NCBI GenBank assembly: GCA_019186985.1
Contig: JABARQ010000026.1
Location: 62,001 to 126,000, forward strand
Length of the DNA: 64,000 nucleotides
Direction: 5' to 3'
Source of the DNA: Prosthecobacter sp.
GTDB taxonomy: Bacteria; Verrucomicrobiota; Verrucomicrobiia; Verrucomicrobiales; Verrucomicrobiaceae
Below the pieces are notes generated by a model. It saw only the letters and a list, made by a program, of their open reading frames with translations, did no database searches and had not been told where the DNA came from. The stretch's first letter is position 1. The number at the start of each line of letters is the position of its first letter. A program made the translations under genes and the position numbers. Shown here piece after piece: positions 13,840-39,728 of the stretch.

Positions 13840-13862
13840 GTTTAACCCCGCCCATTTCCCGC

Positions 13863-16955: not shown

Positions 16956-16960
16956 AATTC

Positions 16961-17016: not shown

Positions 17017-17018
17017 CC

Positions 17019-18089: not shown

Positions 18090-18173
18090 AAACGAAGCTC
18101 GAAACTCGAAATCCGATTCTCGAAGCAGGGAACTTGGAACCTGAAACTTGAAACTTTGAAATCCTTCCCCGCC

Positions 18174-19502
18174 ATGTCCCGCCGCCTTTGGTCATCGCTC
18201 CTGTCGCTTCGTGTCCTGCCCCTGCTTCTGGCCTCCGGGCTGGCGGCTGTGGACAACGTTTTTTCGGCTCCCATGCATGTGGATCTTCCCACGGTCATGA
18301 AGCTAGCCGGAGCAAACAATGATGAGATTCAGCTCGCGCGTGCGAAGCACACCGAGGCCCTGGCGGAGTCGAAGCTGGCCTGGCAGCGTTTCTGGCCCAG
18401 CCTGACCCTCGGAGCCGGTTACAGGCGCACGGATGGCAACGTCCAGGACATCGCAGGCGCGGTCTTTGATGTCAGCAAACAGCAGTACTCCGTGGGGCCG
18501 AACCTCATGATCGACTGGTCGCCAGGCGACATATATTACTCGGCGCTCGCGGCGAAGCAGAAGGCTCTCGCCGCCGAGCAGCTCGCCGAGAAGGCTCGAC
18601 GCGACATCGTCACGCAGTCGACAGGCCGTTATTATGACCTCCTTGCCGCCGAGGCCTCGCTGGCGATCATCAAGGACGATCTCAGGCTGACCCAGGATTA
18701 CGAAAAGCAGATCGGCGGTGCGGTGGATGCGGGCACGGCCTTCCGCGCGGACCTGCTGCGTGTGAAGACCCAGGTGAGCCGCGAGAAGCTGTCGATTCGT
18801 CAGCATGAGGAGGCGCGTGACCTCGCGGCGGCGGCGCTGGCGGAGATTCTGCGTCTTCCTGCCGAGACCGAGCTCCGGCCTGCGAAGGCGGACCTGGTGC
18901 CCGTGCGTCTGCTGGACCGCAGGACGGGAGTGGCCACGCTCATTTCGCAGGCGGCGCGTGAGCGTCCGGAGATGAAGGCTGCGGAGGCGGTGAACAGTGC
19001 TGCGGGCCTGGAAAGCGAGCGCGCCCGGGTGGCGCCGATGATTCCCAGCGTGCAGGCAGGCTACGGCTTCGGCGGACTTGGCGGCGGCTACAACGGGGAC
19101 ATGGGGAACTTCGATGAAACGCAGAACGTCTTCATCGGCCTCGGCTGGAAGATCGGGCCCGGGGGTTTGTTTGACAGGCAGCGCAAGGTGATCGCCGGCG
19201 CCCAGGAGGAGGCCGCCGGTCTTCAGGCCGCGCAGGTGAAGGCTGCGATTGGCCGTGAGGTGGTCGAGGCGGCCGCGAAGTCGCAGAGCGCGCACGACCA
19301 GATCGCCATCAACGACGAAGCCGTGGGTGCTGCCGAAGAAATGGTGAAGCTCGCGAGGGAGCGACAGGCCAGCCAGCTCGGTGTCGTGCTTGAATATCTT
19401 TTGGCCCGTGAGGAGCTGACCCGCGCCCGACAGAGCCGTGTGCAGTCCGTGACGCGCTTCAACAAGGCCCAGCACGAACTGAAACGCGCAGCAGGCAGGT
19501 GA
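18174..19502 (+). CDS. TolC-family outer-membrane efflux protein
   Basis: A 442-residue outer-membrane efflux protein with two OEP repeats. The ATG at 18174 gives a signal peptide (MSRRLWSSLLSLRVLPLLLASG). Long amphipathic helices follow (IQLARAKHTEALAESKLAW; YYSALAAKQKALAAEQLAEK) with short beta segments such as WPSLTLGAGYRRT and VQAGYGFGG, as expected for a trimeric channel. It is the third part of the tripartite pump with the RND and adaptor genes. The intergenic region before it (18090-18173) is rich in short CGAAACTTGAAA-like words similar to those around the adaptor start. Confidence 0.92.
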   Translation: MSRRLWSSLLSLRVLPLLLASGLAAVDNVFSAPMHVDLPTVMKLAGANNDEIQLARAKHTEALAESKLAWQRFWPSLTLGAGYRRTDGNVQDIAGAVFDVSKQQYSVGPNLMIDWSPGDIYYSALAAKQKALAAEQLAEKARRDIVTQSTGRYYDLLAAEASLAIIKDDLRLTQDYEKQIGGAVDAGTAFRADLLRVKTQVSREKLSIRQHEEARDLAAAALAEILRLPAETELRPAKADLVPVRLLDRRTGVATLISQAARERPEMKAAEAVNSAAGLESERARVAPMIPSVQAGYGFGGLGGGYNGDMGNFDETQNVFIGLGWKIGPGGLFDRQRKVIAGAQEEAAGLQAAQVKAAIGREVVEAAAKSQSAHDQIAINDEAVGAAEEMVKLARERQASQLGVVLEYLLAREELTRARQSRVQSVTRFNKAQHELKRAAGR

Positions 19503-19640: not shown

Positions 19641-19652
19641 GAGTGCGGAGAG
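19641..19652. repeat. Degenerate terminal CRISPR repeat remnant
   Basis: GAGTGCGGAGAG matches the last 12 bases of the array repeat exactly and is followed by a 37-nt spacer-sized segment (19653-19689) before the first intact repeat. The 5' part, beginning with GCTT at 19611, is strongly diverged. A decayed unit at this end marks it as the leader-distal (oldest) end of the array. Confidence 0.75.
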
Positions 19653-21248
19653 TTTGTTCCGCCATGATGCTTGGTGCCGTTCTCGCTGAGCTTCAACGGG
19701 GCCGCACTCGTTGGAGTGCGGAGAGGAAAGGGGACAAATGGTGCACATGGCGCGATTTGTGGCTTCAACGGGGCCGCACTCGTTGGAGTGCGGAGAGCGG
19801 CACTATCTGGCCCTAGCGACTCCCGAAAAAGAGGCTTCAACGGGGCCGCACTCGTTGGAGTGCGGAGAGCCTTTCCAGCCTGGCGACCAACGCGCCGGAC
19901 GTGGCGCTTCAACGGGGCCGCACTCGTTGGAGTGCGGAGAGTTGCTCCGGTCCTGCATGCTGTGAACCGCGTTTTCCCGCCTGCTTCAACGGGGCCGCAC
20001 TCGTTGGAGTGCGGAGAGGCTGCATGATGGTCGTGCGGTTGCGCAGGATGTCGATGCTTCAACGGGGCCGCACTCGTTGGAGTGCGGAGAGCTCACGCAG
20101 CCGGAGGCTGCTGCGGCACTGGATTTGCTTCAACGGGGCCGCACTCGTTGGAGTGCGGAGAGGCTATTCACCGCCGCGACGATCTACGAGCCCGCGCCTG
20201 CTTCAACGGGGCCGCACTCGTTGGAGTGCGGAGAGCCAGGCCGTCCGGCGCATGGAGGTCGTGCCGACCCACGCTTCAACGGGGCCGCACTCGTTGGAGT
20301 GCGGAGAGGCGCGGCGGCGGCGGCTTCCGTCATCCGCGTCTTCTGGCTTCAACGGGGCCGCACTCGTTGGAGTGCGGAGAGAACGGGGGAGGGTTCGCAG
20401 CCCTCCCCCTAAACCTTGCTTCAACGGGGCCGCACTCGTTGGAGTGCGGAGAGATCGCAGCCATGACGCTCACGGAAGAGCAATACTTGGCTTCAACGGG
20501 GCCGCACTCGTTGGAGTGCGGAGAGCGCCTGTGAGAGACTGTCGCTTTTCGCAACGGGCGCAGCTTCAACGGGGCCGCACTCGTTGGAGTGCGGAGAGCC
20601 CCACGCGCTGAGGGGTAGGGAAGCAGCTCGCCTCCGCTTCAACGGGGCCGCACTCGTTGGAGTGCGGAGAGCGAGACGGTCGTGAACGAGTGGCGAACCG
20701 CTGGCATGCTTCAACGGGGCCGCACTCGTTGGAGTGCGGAGAGGACGCTGGGGCCTGACTGGCAGCCCGTCGATGACGTGCTTCAACGGGGCCGCACTCG
20801 TTGGAGTGCGGAGAGTGGCTGATTTTTCTTCTTCTTGTTTTACGCAATGACAATGCTTCAACGGGGCCGCACTCGTTGGAGTGCGGAGAGATGCCGCCCT
20901 GCCTGTAGTAGGTCTCGTCACGCATGGCTTCAACGGGGCCGCACTCGTTGGAGTGCGGAGAGCCGCCCATAATGCCCGCCAGTATTCTCATTTTTGAGCT
21001 TCAACGGGGCCGCACTCGTTGGAGTGCGGAGAGATCATAGGGTCGTGGACGACGAGACCATGCGCGAGGCTTCAACGGGGCCGCACTCGTTGGAGTGCGG
21101 AGAGGTCCGCGTGAGCCAGGAGCGTCCGGAGCAGGCTGAGCTTCAACGGGGCCGCACTCGTTGGAGTGCGGAGAGAGAGAAGCATCCAGGAGAGCTGATC
21201 GAACGACGCCGTGCTTCAACGGGGCCGCACTCGTTGGAGTGCGGAGAG

Positions 21249-21362
21249 GAGCGAGACAAGGCTAAGGCTGAACTGCTTCAAGCTAAGGCTTCAACGGGGC
21301 CGCACTCGTTGGAGTGCGGAGAGGAGCGAGACAAGGCTAAGGCTGAACTGCTTCAAGCTAAG
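21249..21362. repeat. Tandem duplication of one repeat-spacer unit
   Basis: The 39-nt spacer at 21249-21287 is repeated exactly at 21324-21362, with one intact repeat between. The repeat after the second copy carries the only point change I saw in the array (21388). The spacer itself contains GCTTCAAGC, which resembles the repeat start and may have helped misalignment. Confidence 0.95.
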
Positions 21363-21471
21363 GCTTCAACGGGGCCGCACTCGTTGGGGTGCGGAGAGTG
21401 GGCCTTTGGTGACGTCCTGAAACAGACCTATGCAAGCTTCAACGGGGCCGCACTCGTTGGAGTGCGGAGAG

Positions 21472-21481
21472 GTGCGGAGAG
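21472..21481. repeat. Duplicated repeat end inside a spacer
   Basis: GTGCGGAGAG, the last ten bases of the repeat, is present a second time immediately after the intact repeat ending at 21471. Only 25 nt of non-repeat sequence remain in this spacer, so it looks like a slippage or deletion product. Confidence 0.85.
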
Positions 21482-23475
21482 CAGGCTGCCGATGATCAGC
21501 AGGATGGCTTCAACGGGGCCGCACTCGTTGGAGTGCGGAGAGGTCATCATCGTGGACGAGTGCCACCACGCTGCCGCCGGCTTCAACGGGGCCGCACTCG
21601 TTGGAGTGCGGAGAGAACCGACGCAGAGCTGCCCGCCTGTCAGCTCGTGCAGCTTCAACGGGGCCGCACTCGTTGGAGTGCGGAGAGGCGATAGGCACAA
21701 CCGAAACATGACGCCCAAAGCTCGGCTTCAACGGGGCCGCACTCGTTGGAGTGCGGAGAGCTTACACCTTCCAGCACACGCCGCCTACTGATTGCCTGGC
21801 TTCAACGGGGCCGCACTCGTTGGAGTGCGGAGAGGTGGTTGGGTTTGGGCACCGGCTCGTCCTCGGACGTGCCGCTTCAACGGGGCCGCACTCGTTGGAG
21901 TGCGGAGAGGGGCACCAACTTGGAGGCAATCGAAATCTGCCTTCAGGCTTCAACGGGGCCGCACTCGTTGGAGTGCGGAGAGTGCAAATGCCGCCTAGCC
22001 TGCCCCGTCCAAATACCTGCTTCAACGGGGCCGCACTCGTTGGAGTGCGGAGAGATGCGCAGCATACAACCTGCGTGCTGCTCGTCGCTTTCTCGCTTCA
22101 ACGGGGCCGCACTCGTTGGAGTGCGGAGAGGCTTCACTCACGCGGACGTTGGTGTCGTGGACTACGATGCTTCAACGGGGCCGCACTCGTTGGAGTGCGG
22201 AGAGCCGTGAGGCCGGGCACCGCCGGACATGCAGGCCATGAGGCTTCAACGGGGCCGCACTCGTTGGAGTGCGGAGAGCCGCGATAATCGACTGCGTGAG
22301 TTTGCTTACGTCTTTGCTTCAACGGGGCCGCACTCGTTGGAGTGCGGAGAGTTGCAAGCGCGAGGGCATAAGGTCATCCGCACTCGCATGCTTCAACGGG
22401 GCCGCACTCGTTGGAGTGCGGAGAGGACGAAACCCCCTAACGGCTGACGGCCCCGGTGGTGCTTCAACGGGGCCGCACTCGTTGGAGTGCGGAGAGACCT
22501 CCTTCCAGCGCGGCGTCATCTTGCAATGGGATCTGCTTCAACGGGGCCGCACTCGTTGGAGTGCGGAGAGCGGACTCAAAGCCGAACTTGCCGCCATGAG
22601 CGTCGAGCTTCAACGGGGCCGCACTCGTTGGAGTGCGGAGAGGCAATCTATCTGCCCATGCTTCTTTCTAAGGGGTTGCTTCAACGGGGCCGCACTCGTT
22701 GGAGTGCGGAGAGCCAATCATGCAGAGCACTCCAAGGAGCGTCACGCCGAGCTTCAACGGGGCCGCACTCGTTGGAGTGCGGAGAGGTCGCAGCGGGCCA
22801 TCTTCTCCGGCCAGCCCCCCCAGGCTTCAACGGGGCCGCACTCGTTGGAGTGCGGAGAGGCGCGGGCGCTTGTCGGCAAACTTCTCCGATGCGTGCATGG
22901 CTTCAACGGGGCCGCACTCGTTGGAGTGCGGAGAGGCGACCTGGCGAAGTAGGAAGCTCGGGCCGCGATACGTGCTTCAACGGGGCCGCACTCGTTGGAG
23001 TGCGGAGAGCGCGAATCGTTCGTGGACATTTATGAGGCCCGTCTTGCTTCAACGGGGCCGCACTCGTTGGAGTGCGGAGAGTCATAAGGAGCGGGACGGG
23101 CGACTTACCGCGATGGAAGCTTCAACGGGGCCGCACTCGTTGGAGTGCGGAGAGCATCGGCTTCCGCCTGGGTGACGTGACCAGCCCGGCGCTTCAACGG
23201 GGCCGCACTCGTTGGAGTGCGGAGAGCTTGGCAAGCCCGGCGGCCGTGAAGCTGGTCGGCTTGCTTCAACGGGGCCGCACTCGTTGGAGTGCGGAGAGTG
23301 CCCGGAGTGTCCAGGAAGTAGCACAAGGCCGTCTTGCTTCAACGGGGCCGCACTCGTTGGAGTGCGGAGAGTGCGTGTCTGTTGCCCAGACTCCCATCCT
23401 TTGAAGTAGGCTTCAACGGGGCCGCACTCGTTGGAGTGCGGAGAGGCAGCCTCGATGCAGCATCGCGGACCCAGC

Positions 23476-23492
23476 CGTTGGAGTGCGGAGAG
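23476..23492. repeat. Truncated CRISPR repeat
   Basis: Only the last 17 bases of the repeat (CGTTGGAGTGCGGAGAG) remain. The distance from the previous repeat end is 47 nt instead of about 72, so roughly 25 bp covering the end of a spacer and the first half of this repeat have been lost. Confidence 0.9.
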
Positions 23493-26400
23493 TGCCACTG
23501 GCGTAGCCCGGTAACGATCATGGAGCCGTGCTTCAACGGGGCCGCACTCGTTGGAGTGCGGAGAGCTGAATCAAAGCTCGCCGCCATCTTCGCCCACTGC
23601 CGTGCTTCAACGGGGCCGCACTCGTTGGAGTGCGGAGAGCGTGCGTTGGATCAATCCTAGATCATCCGCGCATCCGCTTCAACGGGGCCGCACTCGTTGG
23701 AGTGCGGAGAGCCTGGCGGATCCTGTCTCAGGGTGGCTGCACGGATGAGCTTCAACGGGGCCGCACTCGTTGGAGTGCGGAGAGCAAAGCCCCAGGCGAT
23801 GTCGTTGATCAGCCAGTCGATGCTTCAACGGGGCCGCACTCGTTGGAGTGCGGAGAGGCCCGCGCTCTCATCACCTGACGCAACACAAACTACTCGCTTC
23901 AACGGGGCCGCACTCGTTGGAGTGCGGAGAGGTTCGGCTTCCATTCCTGCGGCGATTTTCTCGCCTTCAAGCTTCAACGGGGCCGCACTCGTTGGAGTGC
24001 GGAGAGTTACGAGGGCAAAACATACGCCGCGCCTCCAAAGCTGCTTCAACGGGGCCGCACTCGTTGGAGTGCGGAGAGAAAAGGCGGTGTCGGGCTGCTG
24101 CGCACAAGGAGCAAGCTTCAACGGGGCCGCACTCGTTGGAGTGCGGAGAGTCAGCTCTGGAAATTCAGATTGCTGCACCGCGCGTCGCTTCAACGGGGCC
24201 GCACTCGTTGGAGTGCGGAGAGCTGCTGCAAGGCGTGTGCATGTTGACATTCACCCCGCTTCAACGGGGCCGCACTCGTTGGAGTGCGGAGAGCCGCAAG
24301 AACGGGAAAAGGTCTTGGAGCTGCTCGAACGGCTTCAACGGGGCCGCACTCGTTGGAGTGCGGAGAGGCAACGTAGAGAGGGGCGCGGGAGTCGCGCAGG
24401 GCGAAGCTTCAACGGGGCCGCACTCGTTGGAGTGCGGAGAGTCCGTGCGGACGAAGCTAAACAGCGTCATCGGCGAGGTGCTTCAACGGGGCCGCACTCG
24501 TTGGAGTGCGGAGAGAATTCTTGAATCCTAGTTGCAACCTCATTGCGGTTAGGCTTCAACGGGGCCGCACTCGTTGGAGTGCGGAGAGTAGGCCAGCTTT
24601 CTTTTAGCCTCGCCACGCTCTTCCTTGCTTCAACGGGGCCGCACTCGTTGGAGTGCGGAGAGGTGGCGCTTAATAACGAGAACATGGCCGGTCTTGTGTC
24701 GCTTCAACGGGGCCGCACTCGTTGGAGTGCGGAGAGTCGCCGCCGAGGTGCCTGAGAAATCCGCCTTGGACGCTGTGCTTCAACGGGGCCGCACTCGTTG
24801 GAGTGCGGAGAGTTCCGTCGTAAACTGTTGGCGTCCAGCCTCTAGGTTGCTTCAACGGGGCCGCACTCGTTGGAGTGCGGAGAGCAGGACGGGAGGCCTT
24901 TTGCAAGCACCAGCTCGCGGTGCTTCAACGGGGCCGCACTCGTTGGAGTGCGGAGAGAGCGCGCTTTTTGACAGCGTCGAGCTCCTCGTCCGTGCTTCAA
25001 CGGGGCCGCACTCGTTGGAGTGCGGAGAGCGACATTTGCCCGACGCCGGGATGCCCTTATGCCGGGCTTCAACGGGGCCGCACTCGTTGGAGTGCGGAGA
25101 GCAAACACCATGAGCACACAACTAGCCACCCTGAAAAGCTTCAACGGGGCCGCACTCGTTGGAGTGCGGAGAGGCGAGGAAGGCGCGGAGACCGGCACAA
25201 AAATCAACCGTGGCTTCAACGGGGCCGCACTCGTTGGAGTGCGGAGAGGATGACGTCCCCCCACCTCCAGCACTTTGACTGCGCTTCAACGGGGCCGCAC
25301 TCGTTGGAGTGCGGAGAGCGATTGCAGCCATGATGAGGAGTAGGAGGTGAAAAGTGCTTCAACGGGGCCGCACTCGTTGGAGTGCGGAGAGGGCCGGGCC
25401 ACATCTGGGGCGCGTCCCATTTTTCAGAGCTTCAACGGGGCCGCACTCGTTGGAGTGCGGAGAGACGATCTGCTCCTGAAGTTTGAGAACCTCTTTCATA
25501 GCTTCAACGGGGCCGCACTCGTTGGAGTGCGGAGAGGGCGGCGCCGCGGGCATGGGCCATCATCGGGGCCATGCTTCAACGGGGCCGCACTCGTTGGAGT
25601 GCGGAGAGGAAAAAGAAGTCTCCGTTTGTGCGGGCCTTGCGCGTGCTTCAACGGGGCCGCACTCGTTGGAGTGCGGAGAGCAAACATCTCCACACCCGTC
25701 TCCAGCTCGGCCGCCTGGCTTCAACGGGGCCGCACTCGTTGGAGTGCGGAGAGCATGACTTGTTTTCGCTGCGCCTGCCGTCCGAGTCTTGCTTCAACGG
25801 GGCCGCACTCGTTGGAGTGCGGAGAGGACGGCGATTATGAGTGGCGCGATCCCACCGACGTGCTTCAACGGGGCCGCACTCGTTGGAGTGCGGAGAGCTG
25901 ACGATCCGTGTGGTGTCGCTGCGCATGAAATCGCTTCAACGGGGCCGCACTCGTTGGAGTGCGGAGAGGAAACCGCGATGTGAGCGACGGGCTCGTCGCC
26001 AACGCTTCAACGGGGCCGCACTCGTTGGAGTGCGGAGAGCAGCTCTTCAAGCCCGAATCGCTTAAGCAGATGATTCGCAGCTTCAACGGGGCCGCACTCG
26101 TTGGAGTGCGGAGAGGCCGTGCCTGAAGTAGTCAGCACGTCGACCATGCCGCGCTTCAACGGGGCCGCACTCGTTGGAGTGCGGAGAGGTGCGCGCCGGT
26201 CGATGTTCCACCGGCGCCGCAGAGCTTCAACGGGGCCGCACTCGTTGGAGTGCGGAGAGCGGAGGAGGCATCACGCCCGCGCCGTCCCACGAAGTTGCTT
26301 CAACGGGGCCGCACTCGTTGGAGTGCGGAGAGGCCGCCGGCATCGGGGCCGTCGCCATCGTCATCTAGCTTCAACGGGGCCGCACTCGTTGGAGTGCGGA

Positions 26401-29400
26401 GAGGAATGGCTGGACGGCTCAGCAGTGCTGCTGCCCTATGCTTCAACGGGGCCGCACTCGTTGGAGTGCGGAGAGGCCGTGCAATGCGCCTGCACCTGCA
26501 TTGCCCAGGCGGTGCTTCAACGGGGCCGCACTCGTTGGAGTGCGGAGAGCGAGCTGCACCGTGGACTACTACCCACGCCCGGGCGAGCTTCAACGGGGCC
26601 GCACTCGTTGGAGTGCGGAGAGTTCGCCTCAGCCATCCTCCGCCGATGCTCGACCTGCTTCAACGGGGCCGCACTCGTTGGAGTGCGGAGAGATCGCCGC
26701 CATGGACGTGCTCAGGCAACGCGGCATGCTTCAACGGGGCCGCACTCGTTGGAGTGCGGAGAGTTCCCGCCAGGGCCAGGAAATGCGCCTCCAGATCGCT
26801 GCTTCAACGGGGCCGCACTCGTTGGAGTGCGGAGAGAAGCCCGGCGGCAAGGAAAGCCGCTCCCCACTCCCATGCTTCAACGGGGCCGCACTCGTTGGAG
26901 TGCGGAGAGCCCCCTCCTCAAGCACGGGAATGGCGGCACCACCGATGCTTCAACGGGGCCGCACTCGTTGGAGTGCGGAGAGGCTCAGGTCGAACGCACA
27001 GCATCCATCGAGCCGACTGGCTTCAACGGGGCCGCACTCGTTGGAGTGCGGAGAGGTGACGAACGAGGCGATGGCCGGGCCCAGGTTCTCCATGCTTCAA
27101 CGGGGCCGCACTCGTTGGAGTGCGGAGAGCAGCGTCCAGACGAGCGCCATCGGCTCCGGCCAGGCTCAGCTTCAACGGGGCCGCACTCGTTGGAGTGCGG
27201 AGAGGGCGACCAGACGCGAGGACGCGGAGCCCAAAGCCAGGCTTCAACGGGGCCGCACTCGTTGGAGTGCGGAGAGGCCGGATTCTGCGACGGCGCGGTG
27301 ACGTTGATCTGGCTTCAACGGGGCCGCACTCGTTGGAGTGCGGAGAGCCGCGCCGTTCTCTCCGGCTCGCTACTCCGACGCCATGCTTCAACGGGGCCGC
27401 ACTCGTTGGAGTGCGGAGAGTGCCTTCGAGGAGTTGGTGAGTGCGGCGTTTGCTCAGCTTCAACGGGGCCGCACTCGTTGGAGTGCGGAGAGGCGAGGAG
27501 CGTCACCGCCCTCACGCTTGGCACCGATGCTTCAACGGGGCCGCACTCGTTGGAGTGCGGAGAGGCTTCCCTGACGCTAGCAGCCACTTCCTGACCTGCC
27601 GGCTTCAACGGGGCCGCACTCGTTGGAGTGCGGAGAGCGCCGTAGGAGTGGACAAGGCTGCTGATCGGCGAGGCAGCTTCAACGGGGCCGCACTCGTTGG
27701 AGTGCGGAGAGCCCTGAGGGGCAGGCCGGCGGTCCGGCTTCCTCTCCGCGCTTCAACGGGGCCGCACTCGTTGGAGTGCGGAGAGCAGGGCACCATCGTT
27801 CTCAAGGATGCCAAGGACACCAAGCTTCAACGGGGCCGCACTCGTTGGAGTGCGGAGAGGGCCGCCGCGAACTCGGCCACGAGCGGATGACCGACCTCGC
27901 TTCAACGGGGCCGCACTCGTTGGAGTGCGGAGAGAGACAGCTTGGGAGGCATCGCAGTCTCTGCGGATTGTGCTTCAACGGGGCCGCACTCGTTGGAGTG
28001 CGGAGAGGCCATGTATCTGGACGGCCTGGAAGCCATCACCGGCGAGCTTCAACGGGGCCGCACTCGTTGGAGTGCGGAGAGGTCCACCGAGTTCAGGACG
28101 TAGTCCATCACCACGGCGTCGCTTCAACGGGGCCGCACTCGTTGGAGTGCGGAGAGCTCGACAACGCGCACAACACACACACCACCACCTCATGCTTCAA
28201 CGGGGCCGCACTCGTTGGAGTGCGGAGAGACTCCCTCCAGCGGATAGAGCACGCGCCCGCCGATCTGCTTCAACGGGGCCGCACTCGTTGGAGTGCGGAG
28301 AGTGCCTTGCGGCCAGGCTCGTCAGCATCCGGCCAGATCGGCTTCAACGGGGCCGCACTCGTTGGAGTGCGGAGAGCTGTCGCTAACAACACGCCACTGA
28401 ACCTCGCCACCATGCTTCAACGGGGCCGCACTCGTTGGAGTGCGGAGAGGCGGCATAGGAACGGCGGTTCCGACTCCTGAGCGATGCTTCAACGGGGCCG
28501 CACTCGTTGGAGTGCGGAGAGTGCCTGCGCTCGATCTCGGTCGGCCTGGGCGTGTCCTAGCTTCAACGGGGCCGCACTCGTTGGAGTGCGGAGAGAAGGG
28601 CATGTAAGGCTGCCATTCGGGCGGGAGCATGGCTTCAACGGGGCCGCACTCGTTGGAGTGCGGAGAGCTGGAACGTGGTGCCAGTCAGGCTCAGTGCCAC
28701 GGATGCTTCAACGGGGCCGCACTCGTTGGAGTGCGGAGAGAACATCGTATTCTTTCCCTTCGGACACCGATGGCTTGCTTCAACGGGGCCGCACTCGTTG
28801 GAGTGCGGAGAGTGATGCTTGAATTCGTGCCAATGCCTGCGGTTGACCTGCTTCAACGGGGCCGCACTCGTTGGAGTGCGGAGAGGAGCTGAAGCCAGGC
28901 GTCCACCAGAAGCTTGAAGTCGCTTCAACGGGGCCGCACTCGTTGGAGTGCGGAGAGGTGACGGCGTGGTCAACCCGAAGCCAGGCATCGCCATGCTTCA
29001 ACGGGGCCGCACTCGTTGGAGTGCGGAGAGGCGAACGCCGGGTGGATCGGTGAGGACGAGCAGGCTCCGCTTCAACGGGGCCGCACTCGTTGGAGTGCGG
29101 AGAGGCGGCATGAGTCTATGCAAGGCCTCGGGATTGAGGAGCTTCAACGGGGCCGCACTCGTTGGAGTGCGGAGAGCGCGGAGATTCTGTATATCGACCT
29201 CGCACAGCCACGGCTTCAACGGGGCCGCACTCGTTGGAGTGCGGAGAGCTTGAGATCATTTCAAAATGCTCAGGGGCCAGAGGATAGCTTCAACGGGGCC
29301 GCACTCGTTGGAGTGCGGAGAGTGCACGGCTGCTGGAAATCCACATAAATCATGGCTCAGCTTCAACGGGGCCGCACTCGTTGGAGTGCGGAGAGTTGTG

Positions 29401-32400
29401 CGTTTTCTGGGCCTCAAGGAACAGCCTGCCGAGCTTCAACGGGGCCGCACTCGTTGGAGTGCGGAGAGTTGCTGCGAAGTACGGGACTCTCGGCGATAAC
29501 TGGAGCTTCAACGGGGCCGCACTCGTTGGAGTGCGGAGAGGAAGCGAGGCTGGAGACAGGCCTGGCTCAACTGGCTGCTTCAACGGGGCCGCACTCGTTG
29601 GAGTGCGGAGAGCAAAGCTGTCGAAATAGTTTAGACAGCTCGCATGCCCAGCTTCAACGGGGCCGCACTCGTTGGAGTGCGGAGAGACCTGCGAGCAGGG
29701 CATGAAGGCGCTCGAAGCCGCGTGGCTTCAACGGGGCCGCACTCGTTGGAGTGCGGAGAGGTTGTTGTGTGTGGGTGTGGGATTTCGTAACATGATGGCT
29801 TCAACGGGGCCGCACTCGTTGGAGTGCGGAGAGGCGTGGCGCAGTAGGCCGTGATGCTTTTCTTTTTGCGCTTCAACGGGGCCGCACTCGTTGGAGTGCG
29901 GAGAGCTGAATATTGTCTTGAACTCTTTCTCTTTCAGTAAGCTTCAACGGGGCCGCACTCGTTGGAGTGCGGAGAGAACTTCACCACAAAGACAGGTGGC
30001 AGCTCTGCCAACGCTTCAACGGGGCCGCACTCGTTGGAGTGCGGAGAGACGCCGCGACTCAGACCAACGTCCTGGCCGCCATCGAGCTTCAACGGGGCCG
30101 CACTCGTTGGAGTGCGGAGAGTCGCCGCGCTTGTAGGTGTGTCCGCTCATTGTCCGCAGCTTCAACGGGGCCGCACTCGTTGGAGTGCGGAGAGATGATC
30201 GTCGAACTCCTCCAGCGAACCGCCGTCATCGCTTCAACGGGGCCGCACTCGTTGGAGTGCGGAGAGCTCACCGGCCACACTCACCACGTCGCGCCCATCG
30301 CTGCTTCAACGGGGCCGCACTCGTTGGAGTGCGGAGAGAGCGCCCAAAAGGTACGCGTCGCGCGCGGCTTGCCGCTTCAACGGGGCCGCACTCGTTGGAG
30401 TGCGGAGAGGGGCTCACTTTCAAGGGGGAGGGGTTGCGCTTCCGGGCTTCAACGGGGCCGCACTCGTTGGAGTGCGGAGAGTTGTTGACGGCAATGGTGC
30501 ATACGTCGGTGAGTTCGTGCTTCAACGGGGCCGCACTCGTTGGAGTGCGGAGAGGCGGCGCCATCCCCGCGTCCACCGGCGCTCATCACAAGGCTTCAAC
30601 GGGGCCGCACTCGTTGGAGTGCGGAGAGCATTGCTCTGAATTTGATCACCGGGCGCCTCATGCAGCTTCAACGGGGCCGCACTCGTTGGAGTGCGGAGAG
30701 CGACGGGAAGCTGATCAAGCGCATCCGCATGTCGAAGCTTCAACGGGGCCGCACTCGTTGGAGTGCGGAGAGTTATCGGCAACAAGCATGTGCCTGATCT
30801 TTACAAGATGCTTCAACGGGGCCGCACTCGTTGGAGTGCGGAGAGGCTCCTTGCTGCCATAGATGACGATTGCCTTACTCGCAAGCTTCAACGGGGCCGC
30901 ACTCGTTGGAGTGCGGAGAGATGCCAAAAACTCTCAGGGTAGTACGCGAGAGAGAAAGCTTCAACGGGGCCGCACTCGTTGGAGTGCGGAGAGCCTGGGG
31001 TGGGGCGTTCCACCGTGCCCGGCATGACGTGCTTCAACGGGGCCGCACTCGTTGGAGTGCGGAGAGTCGGGTGTCTTGATGTGAAGGTATCCTCCACAGG
31101 TGCTTCAACGGGGCCGCACTCGTTGGAGTGCGGAGAGCAAAATCCACCTCGCTCTCACGGGCAAGGCCGGGAAGCTTCAACGGGGCCGCACTCGTTGGAG
31201 TGCGGAGAGAAGTAATGACGGGGCAGTCCAACGCCACCCATTTTGCTTCAACGGGGCCGCACTCGTTGGAGTGCGGAGAGACGTCGCCCGGGCTGCTGTG
31301 CAAGCATCTCATCCACAGCGGGCTTCAACGGGGCCGCACTCGTTGGAGTGCGGAGAGCAACTGCTCCTCGACCTTCGCCGGTCGCGCGAAAGCTACGCTT
31401 CAACGGGGCCGCACTCGTTGGAGTGCGGAGAGTGCGAGACGATCATCGAGATCCCGGGCCAGGCCTACGCTTCAACGGGGCCGCACTCGTTGGAGTGCGG
31501 AGAGGTCCTCTGCCCCAAGGAGTGTTGGATCCTCCTTGTCGCTTCAACGGGGCCGCACTCGTTGGAGTGCGGAGAGCCGACCTCCTGGAGGCCGTCAACA
31601 AGCGCAACGCTGCTTCAACGGGGCCGCACTCGTTGGAGTGCGGAGAGGCTCCAGAAAGGAAACTCTCAGCTCGTCAGCGAGCTGCTTCAACGGGGCCGCA
31701 CTCGTTGGAGTGCGGAGAGGAGCCGAAGCGCTCGAACTGGAAGCCGTCGCGAAGTCGCTTCAACGGGGCCGCACTCGTTGGAGTGCGGAGAGGTGTCCGC
31801 ACATTGTCCGCACTCGGCGGCGTTTGGCCGCTTCAACGGGGCCGCACTCGTTGGAGTGCGGAGAGCATCTTGTCGGCAGCAGCCGCGCAGGCTTCCAGCT
31901 CGCTTCAACGGGGCCGCACTCGTTGGAGTGCGGAGAGCCAGAGCTTGTCAGGCTTCAGTCCTCTCTGCGGCGTGCTTCAACGGGGCCGCACTCGTTGGAG
32001 TGCGGAGAGGACCCGCTTGCCAAGCTGGAAGAACGTGCGATTAATGCTTCAACGGGGCCGCACTCGTTGGAGTGCGGAGAGGGCGATCAGCCCGGCCAGT
32101 GGCGCTGGCCGCAAGTCGCTTCAACGGGGCCGCACTCGTTGGAGTGCGGAGAGCACGCTGATCGCGGTGGCCGTGGACCTCTTCGTCAGGCTTCAACGGG
32201 GCCGCACTCGTTGGAGTGCGGAGAGAACGTTCAGAATTGCCTGCCCGGTTTCCACCATTTGCGCTTCAACGGGGCCGCACTCGTTGGAGTGCGGAGAGCC
32301 GCCTGACCGCAGGCAACTACGCCGCCAGCCTCCGCGCTTCAACGGGGCCGCACTCGTTGGAGTGCGGAGAGCAGCCCAGGTGCGGAAATAAGCGGTGGCG

Positions 32401-33167
32401 GCTTTTTTGCTTCAACGGGGCCGCACTCGTTGGAGTGCGGAGAGTCCAGCATGTTTGAAGGAGACGACGACGACGAGAAGCTTCAACGGGGCCGCACTCG
32501 TTGGAGTGCGGAGAGGAGAACCCGCCGCTCGTGGTTTCATCCTAACGCAAAGCTTCAACGGGGCCGCACTCGTTGGAGTGCGGAGAGCTCGACACCCTGC
32601 GCCGCTCCATCCGCACCGACCGTGCTTCAACGGGGCCGCACTCGTTGGAGTGCGGAGAGTCCTCCTTCGGTGAAGAAGTCCACCCATCCAAGCAGCTTCA
32701 ACGGGGCCGCACTCGTTGGAGTGCGGAGAGAGGGTGAGATGCTGCGCTGCACGTTTGAGCACAACGGCGCTTCAACGGGGCCGCACTCGTTGGAGTGCGG
32801 AGAGGCAGCGCAGCCTTGTGTGACAAAAACGCGGTGATCAGCTTCAACGGGGCCGCACTCGTTGGAGTGCGGAGAGAACGTGTGGTCATTTGCAGGCGGC
32901 AACTTCACTTTTAGCTTCAACGGGGCCGCACTCGTTGGAGTGCGGAGAGGGCACCATCAGCGGCGGAAAGACGTTCTTTTCGATAGGCTTCAACGGGGCC
33001 GCACTCGTTGGAGTGCGGAGAGCTGGATCAACATCACCGAAGCGGATCTGCTCAGCACAGCTTCAACGGGGCCGCACTCGTTGGAGTGCGGAGAGTGCAT
33101 CTTCTCGCGGGCAGCCGCGAGCGACAGGCCAGCTTCAACGGGGCCGCACTCGTTGGAGTGCGGAGAG

Positions 33168-33495
33168 TGATCCAGCGATGGCCTGAGCCCCGGTGAGCCG
33201 CCGGCTTCAACGGGGCCGCACTCGTTGGAGTGCGGAGAGTCCGCATCGGCACGGGTGGGACTGTCACGCTGGGCCTGCTTCAACGGGGCCGCACTCGTTG
33301 GAGTGCGGAGAGCCCTCCAGCAGGCCAGCGCCACGCCCCCCGCCCTCAAGCTTCAACGGGGCCGCACTCGTTGGAGTGCGGAGAGGTTCGAAGCACCGGC
33401 GAATGACAACCAGGGCGACGGCGCTTCAACGGGGCCGCACTCGTTGGAGTGCGGAGAGGTGATCCAGCGATGGCCTGAGCCCCGGTGAGCCGCCG
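33168..33495. repeat. Same spacer present twice, three units apart
   Basis: The 36-nt spacer at 33168-33203 recurs at 33459-33495 with one extra G at its plus-strand 5' end; three different spacers lie between. The 1-nt offset suggests a second uptake from the same protospacer, or recombination followed by a change. Confidence 0.9.
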
Positions 33496-36400
33496 GCTTC
33501 AACGGGGCCGCACTCGTTGGAGTGCGGAGAGGAACGCGGGATCGAGGCGCTGGAAGCCTACCACACGCTTCAACGGGGCCGCACTCGTTGGAGTGCGGAG
33601 AGTGCCTCTTCTCAGTGGGGCGATGCGATGCTTGATGATGCTTCAACGGGGCCGCACTCGTTGGAGTGCGGAGAGGGAAGTGGTGATGATGATGAAGGTT
33701 TGCGTCGGAGGAGCTTCAACGGGGCCGCACTCGTTGGAGTGCGGAGAGGATGTAGTGCGCTGTGACCGGCACCGCGTCCTGCTGCTTCAACGGGGCCGCA
33801 CTCGTTGGAGTGCGGAGAGACCCGTCGTCGCGAGAAGCTGAGGCTGCGTCTCCGGGCTTCAACGGGGCCGCACTCGTTGGAGTGCGGAGAGATCAAACAA
33901 CTTTGCTTGAATTATATCATCGTTTGTAGCTTCAACGGGGCCGCACTCGTTGGAGTGCGGAGAGAGAGGAACGCCGTCTGAAATTAAACTCTTTGCTCAG
34001 CTTCAACGGGGCCGCACTCGTTGGAGTGCGGAGAGCCTCTTGTAGATTTCGCCCTGGGTCTTGAGTTTGCCGCGCTTCAACGGGGCCGCACTCGTTGGAG
34101 TGCGGAGAGATGAACATGCAGGCCGTTCCAAGACCCCAAAGATCGCTTCAACGGGGCCGCACTCGTTGGAGTGCGGAGAGTCACTCCATGCCTGATCCCG
34201 CAGCAAAGCGATGGACGCTTCAACGGGGCCGCACTCGTTGGAGTGCGGAGAGGACGCCTATCAGAGCCAAGCGCATCCCGTGCAGCGCCCGCTTCAACGG
34301 GGCCGCACTCGTTGGAGTGCGGAGAGGGCCGCATCAACGGCTACAGCTTCGCGCATGAGGACGCTTCAACGGGGCCGCACTCGTTGGAGTGCGGAGAGGG
34401 AACGACTAAGAGCGCCATCATCCGCTTGCTGGCTAGCTTCAACGGGGCCGCACTCGTTGGAGTGCGGAGAGAACGAGCTGCTGAGCGACGACGTCACCGG
34501 CGTGGTGGGCTTCAACGGGGCCGCACTCGTTGGAGTGCGGAGAGCAGCCAGAGCGACGACCGCGCCGGGAATCTTCCATTCCCGCTTCAACGGGGCCGCA
34601 CTCGTTGGAGTGCGGAGAGCAATGCTGGCGGCGGTGGTGGCTCCTCGAAAGAGGAAGCTTCAACGGGGCCGCACTCGTTGGAGTGCGGAGAGCCATGGAC
34701 GGGCATGACACTTATCCGCGCATCCTGGCTTCAACGGGGCCGCACTCGTTGGAGTGCGGAGAGGGGTGTTGTCCCGTGCCTCATCAAGCTGGCGATTCGC
34801 TTCAACGGGGCCGCACTCGTTGGAGTGCGGAGAGCTGACGGATTCATCACCGCAAGGTATCGCAGAACGTGCTTCAACGGGGCCGCACTCGTTGGAGTGC
34901 GGAGAGGTCGGCCAGCGACCTGAACTTGCGCCTGTTGGAGTAGCTTCAACGGGGCCGCACTCGTTGGAGTGCGGAGAGGAGTGGAACGAATATTGAAGAA
35001 ATCGCCAAAGAAGAAGCTTCAACGGGGCCGCACTCGTTGGAGTGCGGAGAGCTCATGAATCCGCGCCGCGACTGCCTGTTCACGACACAGCTTCAACGGG
35101 GCCGCACTCGTTGGAGTGCGGAGAGGTCGCGACCGGTGGAGATGGCGGCGGCCAAGTCCATGCTTCAACGGGGCCGCACTCGTTGGAGTGCGGAGAGCCA
35201 CCCTGGACCGCGTCACCAAAGCGATCAAGGCCGCCGCTTCAACGGGGCCGCACTCGTTGGAGTGCGGAGAGAGCTCGACTCCGCCATCCTCATCCGCGCC
35301 ATGAGCGCTTCAACGGGGCCGCACTCGTTGGAGTGCGGAGAGTCCATCAAGCATGATGCGGCCGGTAGCCTTCGGACTGCTTCAACGGGGCCGCACTCGT
35401 TGGAGTGCGGAGAGTTTGTCCCCCTACTATTACTATATCTCAATATTCTCAGCTTCAACGGGGCCGCACTCGTTGGAGTGCGGAGAGCAGCATACGCCAG
35501 TATTGCGTCACCGAAAGGACCGCTGTGCTTCAACGGGGCCGCACTCGTTGGAGTGCGGAGAGGGATGGCCGGCCAACCGCGGATGCGGCGGGAAGAGAGG
35601 CTTCAACGGGGCCGCACTCGTTGGAGTGCGGAGAGAACGAACGCAACCAACAACCTGAGGGACACAGACCATGGCTTCAACGGGGCCGCACTCGTTGGAG
35701 TGCGGAGAGGTTCAAGAACGCCGCGTGACGCTGCAGCTCCGTGATGCTTCAACGGGGCCGCACTCGTTGGAGTGCGGAGAGCTGGTTCCTCGACGCCGTG
35801 TCCCACGCTCTGCCCAATGCTTCAACGGGGCCGCACTCGTTGGAGTGCGGAGAGTCAAGGTGTCCTTCCTCGTTCATGACGCTTGTGACGGGCTTCAACG
35901 GGGCCGCACTCGTTGGAGTGCGGAGAGATCAGCCATGGTCCTCGCGCAAGCTGGAGAGCATGATGCTTCAACGGGGCCGCACTCGTTGGAGTGCGGAGAG
36001 ACCGACCTGTCGTTCCTGGCCGCGCATCCTGACCTCATGCTTCAACGGGGCCGCACTCGTTGGAGTGCGGAGAGGGGAAATTGGTCAGCTGGAATGAACA
36101 CGATGCGCGCCGCTTCAACGGGGCCGCACTCGTTGGAGTGCGGAGAGAACCCTTCATCACCCCAGGAGCATGAGCGCTAAAAGGAGCTTCAACGGGGCCG
36201 CACTCGTTGGAGTGCGGAGAGGGTGGTATCGGTAAGAGCAGCCATAATCGTGTTGTGTGCTTCAACGGGGCCGCACTCGTTGGAGTGCGGAGAGGCGTTG
36301 AGGTCGTTCAGGTAGTCTGGAAGTTGTTCTGCTTCAACGGGGCCGCACTCGTTGGAGTGCGGAGAGCCAAAGGGAGCTCCTGCTTTGCGTGGGCCATCGG

Positions 36401-36949
36401 CGCTTCAACGGGGCCGCACTCGTTGGAGTGCGGAGAGACCTGGACATGTTTCAGATGTTCAGCATGAACGCTGCGCTTCAACGGGGCCGCACTCGTTGGA
36501 GTGCGGAGAGCTGGAGCACGGCGGCGTACCAAGGGGCGCGAGGGGCGCTTCAACGGGGCCGCACTCGTTGGAGTGCGGAGAGCTCTCAGCCTTCTCGCCG
36601 CATGATTTCGGCACCCGTCGCTTCAACGGGGCCGCACTCGTTGGAGTGCGGAGAGGGCGGAGTTGAGAAAATGCGCGAGCTTGTGGGCGCATGCTTCAAC
36701 GGGGCCGCACTCGTTGGAGTGCGGAGAGACCTGGGTCAGCGACGAGAACGGAAACACAACATTCACCTGGCTTCAACGGGGCCGCACTCGTTGGAGTGCG
36801 GAGAGCCGTTCCGCGATTCCTGGAATGAGACCTTCGAGAAGCTTCAACGGGGCCGCACTCGTTGGAGTGCGGAGAGAGGCTTTCAAGCCCTTCACTCCTC
36901 GCTCACAGGCTGGGCTTCAACGGGGCCGCACTCGTTGGAGTGCGGAGAG

Positions 36950-37164
36950 TGTCGCTTCTGGAATCTCGCAGGTTTGGGGCTTGCCGGTGCGCTTTGCGAG
37001 CGGCGGAAGCCTCGGATGCCTGCGAAACAGGAGGGACGGGACGAGGGGTGGCGAATGTCTTCACTTTCAAGGCGCGAGCGCGTGCGGGGGCTGAAAGCAC
37101 CACCGAGGCGCTCGCGATTGATGATTTGGAGATGTAAAAGATCGAAAGCCTGGACGTGGGTGTT
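36950..37164 (-). promoter_or_regulatory. Probable CRISPR leader
   Basis: A 215-bp region between the intact right end of the array and the cas2 stop codon. By position and by the perfect repeats beside it, this is where the leader (array promoter and integration signals) should lie. It is not AT-rich as many leaders are; the most AT-rich part is 37118-37146 (around GATTGATGATTTGGAGATG). A near-perfect inverted repeat (ACGTGGGTGT / ACACCACGT) overlaps the cas2 stop. No confident -35/-10 pair was seen. Part of the region looks like an old coding sequence on the plus strand. Confidence 0.5.
37021..37137 (+). pseudogene. Possible C-terminal gene fragment in the leader region
   Basis: On the plus strand the frame ending at 37137 reads VANVFTFKARARAGAEST then TEALAIDDLEM and stop. 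This has the composition of a real protein end (some secreted beta-sandwich domains end with IDD/IDN-L patterns). No start or upstream gene body exists because the array begins before it. It may be a relic of the gene into which the locus was inserted, or chance. Confidence 0.25.
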
Positions 37165-37482
37165 CTACACCACGTAGCAGGGCGCATCAAACCGCGAATA
37201 GGGCAAGCCGAGGGAGGAGATCACGCGGTCGCCGCGACCCTCGGCGGGCCCCAGGGAGACGAAGATGACCTGATCCTCGTCCTGTTTGATGAGCGCCTTG
37301 AGCTCACGTTGCAGCACCGTCAGCTCGCGCGAGGTGAGGTCGCACTCGAAGACGGAAAACTGGAGATGGGTGCCGTGGTTCTTGCACACCTTGAAAACCT
37401 TCTTCAGCCGCCGGTCGTTCGCGATGTCATAGCACACCAGGTAAGTCTGGCGGGCGCTGATCACCGTGGCTCGGTCGGACAT
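37165..37482 (-). CDS. cas2: CRISPR-associated endonuclease Cas2
   Basis: A 105-residue Cas2, slightly longer than the usual 85-100. The ferredoxin-like first strand with its key acidic residue is TYLVCYDIANDRRLKKVFKV; the second strand is HLQFSVFECDL, and later QVIFVSLGP. A short N-terminal extension (MSDRATVISARQ) precedes strand 1. Cas2 dimers bridge two Cas1 dimers to integrate new spacers. It is the last gene of the leftward locus, 44 bp after cas4-cas1 and about 215 bp from the array, as expected for an adaptation module beside the leader. Confidence 0.96.
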   Translation of the reverse strand: MSDRATVISARQTYLVCYDIANDRRLKKVFKVCKNHGTHLQFSVFECDLTSRELTVLQRELKALIKQDEDQVIFVSLGPAEGRGDRVISSLGLPYSRFDAPCYVV

Positions 37483-37526: not shown

Positions 37527-39728
37527 CTACCGTGTCACCATCGGCACATAGTCGGGGATTTCACCGGTGAGCCAGCGGGCGAGCAGGCGGGCCTGAAGCT
37601 CCAGCACTCGCCGATAGCTCACCTTGTAATCAAAGACCGGATGGGTGATGAGGGCGTTCATGCGCTGTTCATAGGCGTGGAAAAAGGCCCTGCGCCCATG
37701 CGGCGTGAGGTTCACGGCGTCGCCTGCCCGGACAAAATGGCCTGAGGTGATCATGCGGTTGTTGATGGCGGTCAGCACGGCGCTTTCCGCCACAAGCGGG
37801 CGGAATTCCTCCATCAGATCAAGCGCAAGGGCCGGGCGTCCGTGGCGTGGCTGATGATAAAAGCCGACATAGGGATCAAAGCCAACGGCCAGGGCGGCGA
37901 TGGTGCAATCCTTCGCCAGCAGGCTGTAAGCAAGCGAGAGCAGGGCGTTCACGGGATCGGTCGGCGGCCGACGCCGGCGATGGGTGAAGTCGAAGTTGAA
38001 GGCTTCCGTCTCGGCTTTTCGCCTCGCCTGGGCCTTCGGGTTGTCATCCAGGCCAGGAATCTCGTCATCCATGTCATCCTCGCCCACCTTGATCATGCCG
38101 GTGAAGTGCTGGAAGTAGAGCGCCGCAGCCGCGCCTTCCATGCCGAGAAGCTCATCCAGGCCGCGGGCATTGCTCACGCGTGCGGCGATTTCCTTCAGGC
38201 CCACCACGGCGGTGCCGGGGGGCTGTGTGTGCAGGCGCATCAGCATCGTGCGGTGGTTGCGGATTTTGGCCTGCACGATCTTCTGGGCCACGGCCAGGCA
38301 TTGCAGCGGGTTCGAGGCCGCGGCGAACTGCTGGATGCGTGTGTGCACGTTCTTGAGGCCATGCCCTCGGGTCAGTCCGTAAAACCAGCCGCCCATGCTG
38401 AAGTAGGCCACCGGAATCTCCTGCTCACAGAGTTCCTGCACGGCCTGGGTGCTGAGCTGGATGTTGCCAAACAGCGCGACATGCGTCACGTCGTTCAGGC
38501 GGATTTCGTCGATCACGCTGTCGCCGTCCTTGATGACCAGGCGCTCGGATTTGATGCCCACACGATGGCCCTGCGTGTTCAGGTAGAGGGCACGTTCGTC
38601 GTCGCGGGCGGCGATGAGACGACGAGGGGGAGTCTGGGTGCGAAGGGCGGAGATCTGGGAAGGGGAGGGCTGGCTCTGCGCGCGGGGCTGGGCCGTCCAG
38701 CTTTGAGTGCCACGATTGCCAATCGTGGCTGCGGACAGCAGTCGCGTCTCATCCGGCAGGCAAACGGGAGCCAGGGAGCAGCGGACGCATTTGGGGTTGT
38801 TCACCAGCGGCGGCGGGATGGTGGGGGATGCGGCCAGTTCGCGTGCCCTGGCGATCTGGTCCATGATCCATGCCTCGATTTCCGGCGTCATGCGCAGGGG
38901 CACGCGCTGCCTGGTGGCACGATAATAAATGATGCCTTCATCGCAGGCGTAGCCGTTGTCGCGCAGGATCAGGATTTGCAGTCCCAGCTGCATCTTGTCC
39001 GCATCCCACAGCTCGTTTGCCTCCCGTCCGATCTTCGGTGCGCCGGCCTTGTAATCCACCGGCGTCACGCTTTGCACCTCACGGCTGGAAAAGAGGTCAT
39101 CCGGGCGGCGGGCGGACATTTTCACCTCGACCAGGTCCATCTTGGCCACCACGCCCAGACGTGCCGAGCTGAGCATCGCGGAGCGGGAGTGGATCGTCTC
39201 CTCCTTGGGAGCGTTCTCCTCCGGCGCGTGCGTTTTCAGGTCGGCGAGGTCGGGTTCGCCGGTTTCAGTGGTTGGGGCTTCGACGGCAGTTTCCGCATCA
39301 GCGGCGGTTTCTTCCTCGGCCTCCGCCTTCTTCCGGGCCTTCGGCAGCGATCCTTTGCCACGATCCACCTTTTCATGGATGGCAGAGCCGCGTTCGGTGT
39401 CCGCATTGCTCACGAAGACGCCTTCCACCTGCTCGTAGTAGAAAAGGCGCGGGCAATAGACGAACTCGTTCAGCATCCGGGCTCGCAGAAGCTCGGCGTG
39501 CGCAGTTTCAGGTTTCAGGTTAAAAGTTGAAAGTGGCTCAGAGGCAGGATCACACCAGCCGCTGCGATCATCGGCTTCATTCTCCCGACGCACGCGGTCG
39601 ATGCCCCACAGGTCCAGCTCGGGATGATCCGCAGGGATGGGCAAGGGCTCATAAAGAAACTCCGGCTCCCAAAGATCGGCGCGACCTGGATAAAGGGCGC
39701 GGGCGCTGCGGTAAGATGGCGGATTCAT
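37527..39728 (-). CDS. cas4-cas1: Cas4-Cas1 fusion protein
   Basis: A 733-residue fusion typical of type I-G. After about 75 variable residues, the Cas4 RecB-like nuclease part begins at MLNEFVYCPRLFYYEQVEG (first cluster Cys), continues with RGSAIHEKVD and TPVDYKAGAPK (nuclease His, Asp, Lys) and closes with CVRCSLAPVC, the remaining Fe-S cysteines. An acidic and Ala-rich insertion separates HEKV from the next block. Cas1 starts near residue 380 (ALYLNTQGHRVGIKSERLVI) and carries the catalytic residues in LLGMEGAAAALYF (Glu) and YHQPRHGRPALALDLMEEF (His, Asp). Cas4 trims prespacers and selects for the PAM; Cas1 integrates them. In Geobacter I-G such fusions control PAM choice. No frameshift is seen. 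Confidence 0.97.
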   Translation of the reverse strand: MNPPSYRSARALYPGRADLWEPEFLYEPLPIPADHPELDLWGIDRVRRENEADDRSGWCDPASEPLSTFNLKPETAHAELLRARMLNEFVYCPRLFYYEQVEGVFVSNADTERGSAIHEKVDRGKGSLPKARKKAEAEEETAADAETAVEAPTTETGEPDLADLKTHAPEENAPKEETIHSRSAMLSSARLGVVAKMDLVEVKMSARRPDDLFSSREVQSVTPVDYKAGAPKIGREANELWDADKMQLGLQILILRDNGYACDEGIIYYRATRQRVPLRMTPEIEAWIMDQIARARELAASPTIPPPLVNNPKCVRCSLAPVCLPDETRLLSAATIGNRGTQSWTAQPRAQSQPSPSQISALRTQTPPRRLIAARDDERALYLNTQGHRVGIKSERLVIKDGDSVIDEIRLNDVTHVALFGNIQLSTQAVQELCEQEIPVAYFSMGGWFYGLTRGHGLKNVHTRIQQFAAASNPLQCLAVAQKIVQAKIRNHRTMLMRLHTQPPGTAVVGLKEIAARVSNARGLDELLGMEGAAAALYFQHFTGMIKVGEDDMDDEIPGLDDNPKAQARRKAETEAFNFDFTHRRRRPPTDPVNALLSLAYSLLAKDCTIAALAVGFDPYVGFYHQPRHGRPALALDLMEEFRPLVAESAVLTAINNRMITSGHFVRAGDAVNLTPHGRRAFFHAYEQRMNALITHPVFDYKVSYRRVLELQARLLARWLTGEIPDYVPMVTR

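Follow-up and report, generated by a model that had tools for sequence, protein, structure and literature searches.

An intact type I-G CRISPR-Cas locus in Prosthecobacter with a very long array and an effector operon that was probably exchanged in place

Genes of the type I-G locus

We analysed a stretch of 64,000 nucleotides from Prosthecobacter sp. (GenBank assembly GCA_019186985.1, contig JABARQ010000026.1, positions 62,001 to 126,000; hereafter the window, with positions counted from its first letter), which carries a CRISPR (clustered regularly interspaced short palindromic repeats)-Cas locus of type I-G and its very long array. All locus features described below lie on the minus strand. 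The effector operon runs from csb1 (Cas7; 47481–48698; TIGR02570, 82.1 bits against a cutoff of 38) through csb2 (a Cas5-Cas6 fusion; 45991–47484; TIGR02165, 299 bits, cutoff 45) and cas3g, a helicase-nuclease with a C-terminal HD domain (42929–45994; TIGR02621, 742 bits, cutoff 400), to a profile-matched cas8g of the short type, the effector large subunit (41835–42932). The adaptation genes follow: a cas4-cas1 fusion (Cas4g/Cas1g; 37527–39728; NF049935, 699 bits, cutoff 560) and cas2 (37165–37482, by profile matches). Next comes the leader (36950–37164), which over 215 positions is 72% identical to that of congener G011, 61% to that of G058 and 53% to that of G019.

For all six cas genes the best PADLOC match was a subtype-G model, covered over nearly its whole length, and NCBIfam assigned I-G models to five of them and a generic model to cas2. 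Judged by these matches, the locus is a complete type I-G CRISPR-Cas system. It resembles the GSU0051–0054 variant of type I-G (formerly I-U) in having csb1, csb2, cas3g with a C-terminal HD domain, short cas8g, the cas4-cas1 fusion, cas2, a 36-nucleotide repeat and a TTN-type protospacer-adjacent motif (PAM). An earlier note on this DNA, made from the letters alone, had described one very large array with intact cas4-cas1 and cas2, and the analysis bears this out. Its interpretation held in part; the type I-G assignment, the toxin-antitoxin pair in the operon and the effector scars on both sides, described below, were absent from it.

Structure and size of the array

The array spans 19690–36949, with 36949 as its leader end and the minus strand as CRISPR RNA (crRNA) sense. 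It comprises 238 repeat places and 237 spacers, exactly the coordinates and counts that the earlier note had given (237 full repeats plus a truncated one). Its statement that the repeats are near-perfect is equally accurate: 236 are perfect copies of the 36-mer GCTTCAACGGGGCCGCACTCGTTGGAGTGCGGAGAG, one has a single mismatch (at 21363, the sole substitution among the 237 full repeats) and one is a half repeat of about 16 nucleotides (23477–23492) that keeps only the right end and was probably left by a small deletion. All 237 spacer intervals measure 34–41 nucleotides save one of 11 caused by the half repeat, and 227 fall between 35 and 39. The spacers comprise 236 distinct strings, the only recurring one being shared by neighbours 22 and 23. 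Spacers 186 and 190 are identical apart from one additional base at the left end of 190, with the right (PAM-side) end in common, and seem to be one target captured in two separate events.

Just outside the array, a degenerate leader-distal repeat end of 12 nucleotides (19641–19652) followed by a spacer-like stretch of 37 nucleotides marks the array's old far end. When the whole genome was searched with the repeat at up to three mismatches, one strand gave 237 matches, the same number as there are full repeats in the array, and none were found on the other strand or with the reversed pattern. Chance origin of the array is excluded. The locus thus has what is expected of a CRISPR array: regularly spaced near-identical repeats with unique spacers, a leader adjoining cas genes, a degenerate far-end repeat and, as shown below, spacers that match mobile elements.

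The repeat forms a hairpin, after which come CCCC and then GTTGAAGC. In relatives, the outer repeat bases and the GTTGAAGC end are mostly conserved, and the hairpin stems vary on both sides. In the published type I-G system, crRNA is cut four nucleotides past the hairpin, which yields an 8-nucleotide handle (PMC9638904), and the geometry of the window repeat fits this processing. The system concerned, that of Thioalkalivibrio sulfidiphilus, is like the window in the geometry of Csb2 processing (predicted for the window), in its TTN PAM and in having toxin-antitoxin genes between csb2 and cas4-1, but it has the largest Cas8g variant where the window has the short one (PMC9638904). The array repeat of another locus, L175, equals the window repeat except for one loop base, though its Csb2 is only 36% identical.

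How large is the array in comparison? Bacteria typically carry fewer than 50 spacers, and the longest published array, in Haliangium ochraceum, has 587 (588 repeats) (PMC7145573; PMC8047081; PMC4869251). Compared on the array alone and not on cas type, the Haliangium array shares 36-bp repeats and hundreds of units with that of the window, but is more than twice as long (same sources). Counting the repeat-end pattern GGCNNNRTTGAAGC, which as background turns up from a few to some tens of times in a genome and is blind to other repeat types, gave 261 reverse matches in this genome against 102 and 95 in the next of 387 genomes sampled from the phylum; the highest one-strand count among ten genomes behind other type I-G loci was 140. 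The homologous array of congener G019 has 84 repeats. Aligning csb2 across genome contigs gave 22 loci at 33–43% identity, several with arrays cut by the fetched flanks, so that their sizes are lower bounds only. The claim that this is one of the larger arrays accordingly stands for the sampled phylum, where by this pattern it is the largest, but it is no record. The lineage is poorly sampled only in a relative sense: 48 genomes of the genus, this one included, were available for comparison.

Each acquisition copies the repeat at the leader end. The uniformity of the repeats can be accounted for by young spacers and this normal copying, and the strong repeat homogenisation that the earlier note proposed is not needed. 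Its suggestion of continuing spacer acquisition is plausible.

Remnants of an older effector operon

The effector genes are bordered on both sides by pieces of a different type I-G operon. Upstream of csb1, an older cas3 is represented at 49104–49289 by its start and initial 61 codons, with 84% identity over 186 nucleotides to cas3 of congener G011. The similarity begins four nucleotides ahead of the start codon, runs through codon 61 and is cut at the codons for GxGKT, which we take to be helicase motif I. At the other edge, one nucleotide past the cas8g stop, lie the last codons of an older csb2 (41806–41833; 27 of 28 nucleotides identical to G011). A second such scar (40792–40823; 91% over 32 positions to G011) comprises the older csb2 tail and the start of an open reading frame (ORF) of about 220 residues. 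The intact operon in G011 is ordered cas3, csx17-type cas8, csb1, csb2, as against csb1-csb2-cas3-cas8g in the window. With the old cas3 start on one side and the old csb2 end on the other, the present cassette therefore sits between them, that is, remains of the replaced operon are found at both edges, as an exchange in place would leave them.

Seventeen loci with a cassette of this type were searched for such remnants ahead of csb1, at an E-value of 0.01 or better. Old cas3 starts were found in nine (the window, L177, L178, L188, L189, L020, L179, L173 and G019) and not in L175, L180, L168, L169, L176, L182 or L186; a tenth match, in L174, covers seven residues and was set aside from the count. 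The nine align over 13, 20, 45, 54, 61, 79, 86, 92 and 96 positions. Two are very short: 13 residues in G019 and 20 in L020, where about 12 seemingly lie upstream of the start used in relatives. In the same 17 loci, four internal Cas3 segments gave no match each, reversed queries gave none, and ten shuffles matched 0, 0, 2, 0, 0, 3, 0, 0, 0 and 0 loci. A comparable remnant occurs in G058, where a 29-residue piece of the end of another csb2 (86% identical to that of G059) lies directly behind the locus's own csb2.

The two states of the locus can be seen side by side in congener G028. Its contigs C67 and C68 have flanks that are 95.3% identical over 748 positions upstream and 96.1% over 1580 downstream; between them lie csx17-type effectors on C67 and GSU-type effectors on C68. 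Both contigs break off at an identical position within cas4-cas1, as would be expected of two branches of a single assembly. Because the G028 bin has 8% contamination, the pair probably represents two strains of one population.

Our literature search, which largely missed subscription journals, brought up no account of scars left by effector exchange in type I-G loci. Unlike the GSU0051–0054 variant to which its effectors belong, the window has csx17-type scars on both sides of the effector genes, and its adaptation lineage serves csx17-type effectors in seven of 12 genus loci, by our own grouping as given below.

Histories of the adaptation and effector genes

Comparison across the genus indicates that the adaptation genes form a lineage shared within it, and that the effector genes, a separate cassette, have a history of their own. 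Cas4-Cas1 of the window was matched at an E-value of 1e-60 or better in 13 of the 48 genus genomes, its own included, with G009 as a distant member (36–40% identity). A csb2 search in 56 genomes, among them this one and 34 others of the genus, gave matches in four besides its own, the sole close one being G019 (80%).

In the Cas4-Cas1 tree the window groups with G028 (support 100/99), whose row fills only 40% of the columns, then with G017 (81/78) and then with G019 (100/99). A quick effector tree, supported by the Shimodaira–Hasegawa-like approximate likelihood ratio test (SH-aLRT) only, separates the window and G019 from G028, and G028 groups with two other Verrucomicrobiaceae. In approximately unbiased (AU) tests, the effector data rejected the window, G019 and G028 as one clade (332 log units worse, p-AU 2.5e-65), and the Cas4-Cas1 data rejected G028 forced together with L175 and L177 (p-AU 0.00017). 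Left out were L021 from the effector tree, L021 and L022 from the effector AU tests, and three long-branch rows from a second Cas4-Cas1 tree.

Among 12 genus loci in 11 genomes, this one adaptation lineage is accompanied by five effector classes, which are our own grouping of identities: the window genome (G000) with G019; contig C68 of G028; G011, G018 and G021; contig C67 of G028 with G059, G056 and, more loosely, G002; and G017 with G058. PADLOC naming of the effector proteins in these classes covers G011 and C67 only.

Shuffling between adaptation and effector modules is already known (PMC6452270), and partly independent histories of the two are common to that account and the window. The window differs in that the exchange is inside one subtype and in place, with sequence scars and, in a congener, a pair of alleles between near-identical flanks.

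Spacer targets and the protospacer-adjacent motif

Spacers were compared with 187 viral loci (2.4 Mb, partly overlapping) fetched via related phage proteins. Seven of 236 matched at eight or fewer mismatches, and neither reversed nor complemented spacers matched at all. Because the loci were chosen by phage gene, this fraction is no estimate of the share of spacers with known targets; the spacers can nonetheless be called, as the earlier note had it, a record of invading DNA. On the PAM side, the best match is flanked by GAA for spacers 57, 5, 34, 48 and 168, by CAA for spacer 224 and by GAG for spacer 178. Six of the seven thus show NAA, with GAA and CAA reading 5'-TTC and 5'-TTG on the other strand, so that the protospacer flanks, whose alignment the earlier note had proposed, carry the expected 5'-TTN PAM in these six. 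Published type I-G PAMs are TTN and GAA (PMC9638904; PMC10504553). Spacer 48 has a second, weaker site flanked by ATC. Weaker matches were not used for the PAM: at exactly nine mismatches, nine more spacers matched and the best match showed NAA in only one, and at ten the controls respond too (36 spacers in total, and 5 in each of the two control sets).

For spacer 5 the matches in phage records were capsid genes, and the site of spacer 168 is in the same capsid gene as that of spacer 5. Spacer 57 matched a portal gene in a congener (contig G061:C158, locus L043), and the target gene of spacer 34 looks ParB-like by eye. The G061 contig carries lambda-type portal and ClpP-like genes, which are also present in IMG/VR viral contigs. 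When the array was searched in three stretches against phage records at an E-value of 0.1, spacer 5 was the sole matching spacer, hitting capsid genes of five records; a search of plasmid records (19690–27650 and 27600–35500) gave weak matches, including spacer 5 in a phage capsid gene on a Roseomonas plasmid. The whole-array search against the genus scored six candidates per genome, a scope that leaves room for self-targeting and prophage targets. Four of the seven good matches (spacers 5, 34, 48 and 57 of 237) belong to the old quarter of the array.

The seam between effector and adaptation genes, and other features

Between cas8g and cas4-cas1 lies a toxin-antitoxin pair (39953–40692), made up of a PIN-domain (VapC-like) toxin gene (39953–40345; PF01850 above cutoff; 73% identical to that of L177) and a Phd/YefM antitoxin gene (40390–40692; PF02604 above cutoff; 74%). 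Different toxin-antitoxin families recur at this seam in type I-G loci: Phd and PIN also in L177 (15784–16448), Fic in L175 (15803–16552) and G011, and an AbiEii toxin, with its presumed AbiEi partner below cutoff, in L182 (11350–11778). L273 likewise has a toxin-antitoxin family at the seam (3777–4526). Other type I-G loci have short seams without toxin-antitoxin genes. Two toxin-antitoxin systems are reported between csb2 and cas4-1 of the T. sulfidiphilus locus (PMC9638904). Since the pair is 73–74% identical between the window and L177 and the effectors of the same two loci only 32–44%, it seems to stay with the adaptation side.

The ORF of about 220 residues, which has no Pfam match, is found just upstream of cas4-cas1 in L177 (17226–17900), L175 (16563–17237) and L020 (939–1595), and only as pieces in the window, one of them a small remnant at 39849–39938 (74% over 91 positions to L175). 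Several seam insertions are flanked by such small pieces. An ORF of 296 residues (40897–41787) separates cas8g from the toxin-antitoxin pair; it has a copy of the old csb2 tail on either side and looks as though it had been inserted there. No family was found for it, nor any tblastn match in the loci of four relatives. Upstream of the effector operon, an element with the core TGTCCCACCCCC (49523–49588) is common to loci with other effector types and is a possible control site.

Past the far end of the array, at 11539–19502, are ChrB-like, chromate-transporter-like and RND efflux genes. Rfam and tRNA scans of the whole window gave no matches. Elsewhere, the genome carries a second system, of type III-B (G000:C27, L047 3302–10008), with Cmr1, Cmr4, Cmr5, Cmr6, CARF proteins, its own cas1 and its own array of 30 units (14565–16793 of L047 and L048).

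Weighing the explanations

The best explanation of these observations, to which we assign a probability of about 0.8, is that this intact type I-G locus, with its very long array, had its effector operon exchanged in place. Cas4-Cas1 and Cas2 would write new spacers at the leader end (36949), picked beside a 5'-TTC (TTN) PAM, and the array would be transcribed from the leader toward 19690. Csb2 would cut each repeat four nucleotides past the hairpin to give the 8-nucleotide GTTGAAGC handle, and Csb1, Csb2, Cas8g and Cas3 would use the resulting guides to destroy DNA of tailed phages. An older csx17-type operon (cas3-csx17-csb1-csb2) would have been replaced in place by the csb1-csb2-cas3-cas8g cassette, with the 61 initial codons of the old cas3 surviving at one edge and the old csb2 tail at the other; leader, cas2 and cas4-cas1, and presumably the array, would have been kept.

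Could the locus simply be a large, vertically inherited type I-G locus with fast-evolving effector genes and no exchange? Effector genes may evolve faster than cas1, and all nine verrucomicrobial GSU-type effectors as one clade are not rejected (p-AU 0.185). We consider this very unlikely, however, as it leaves without explanation the different gene order, the terminal pieces of another operon on both sides, the two cassettes between nearly identical flanks in G028 and the rejected effector clade. It is also unlikely, if less so, that the cas3 fragment is no scar but a conserved small functional gene travelling with the GSU-type cassette. Its presence in nine of 17 loci, including one of Chloroflexota (L173), and an open frame of some 60–120 codons in some copies would suit such a gene. 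Yet the window copy resembles the intact csx17-type cas3 of G011 most closely and is only 50–69% identical to the five other remnants compared; the matched length varies from 13 to 96 positions; and in G028 the C68 flank and very start of cas3 match the intact cas3 locus on C67.

An array length inflated by assembly, the doubt that the earlier note itself raised, is scarcely credible. Arrays are hard to assemble, and similar ones stand at contig ends in G011, G058 and G002, but this one is interior to a single contig of 193,888 bases (194 kb), and expansion would duplicate spacers, yet 236 of 237 strings are distinct. Also unlikely, in our view, is a dead archive in which adaptation or interference no longer works. 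The concentration of phage matches in the old quarter and an operon interrupted by a toxin-antitoxin pair and scars would agree with it; repeats as clean at the old end as at the leader end could mean either a young array or a recent freeze. On the other side, matches of the six cas genes to their models are nearly full-length, and only one substitution is found in the 237 full repeats.

Several points weigh against an exchange in place, or limit how far it can be taken. The Cas4-Cas1 data reject a grouping of the window with G019 only weakly (p-AU 0.031), and the AU p-values are not those of a blind test, as the tested clades were named after the trees had been seen. As the single GSU-type clade is not rejected, a foreign donor of the cassette, which was considered, is not claimed. 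The alleles of G028, if they come from two strains, as they may, are still two alleles, but not in one cell. The GAG flank of spacer 178 does not fit TTN, and the PAM rests on few sites because good targets were found for only seven of 236 spacers. Activity of the locus and its crRNA processing are predictions from sequence. The array presumably outlived the exchange, judging from the kept leader and adaptation genes, though it may also be the younger of the two; its repeat stem differs from that of G011 and the leader is 72% identical, so it may not be the very array that the older effector served.

Implications

A broader reading, which we hold to be about evenly balanced, is that the type I-G array, Cas4-Cas1, Cas2 and the leader act as a standing memory bank, and that effector operons are cassettes swapped repeatedly in place at a preferred seam, from just inside the cas3 start to the csb2 end, that also collects toxin-antitoxin genes. 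With handle, hairpin design and PAM in common, the old memory would stay readable. If so, escape from phage anti-CRISPR proteins would be an obvious gain.

Exchange of CRISPR modules is usually inferred from tree conflict. Here, parts of the replaced operon are still recognisable in the sequence, and congener G028 shows both versions between near-identical flanks. The locus thereby makes it testable whether an immune memory can outlast its reading machinery, and whether a different effector could put the old guides to use immediately. With phage spacers of the right PAM still present at its far end, the long array would suit such tests well.

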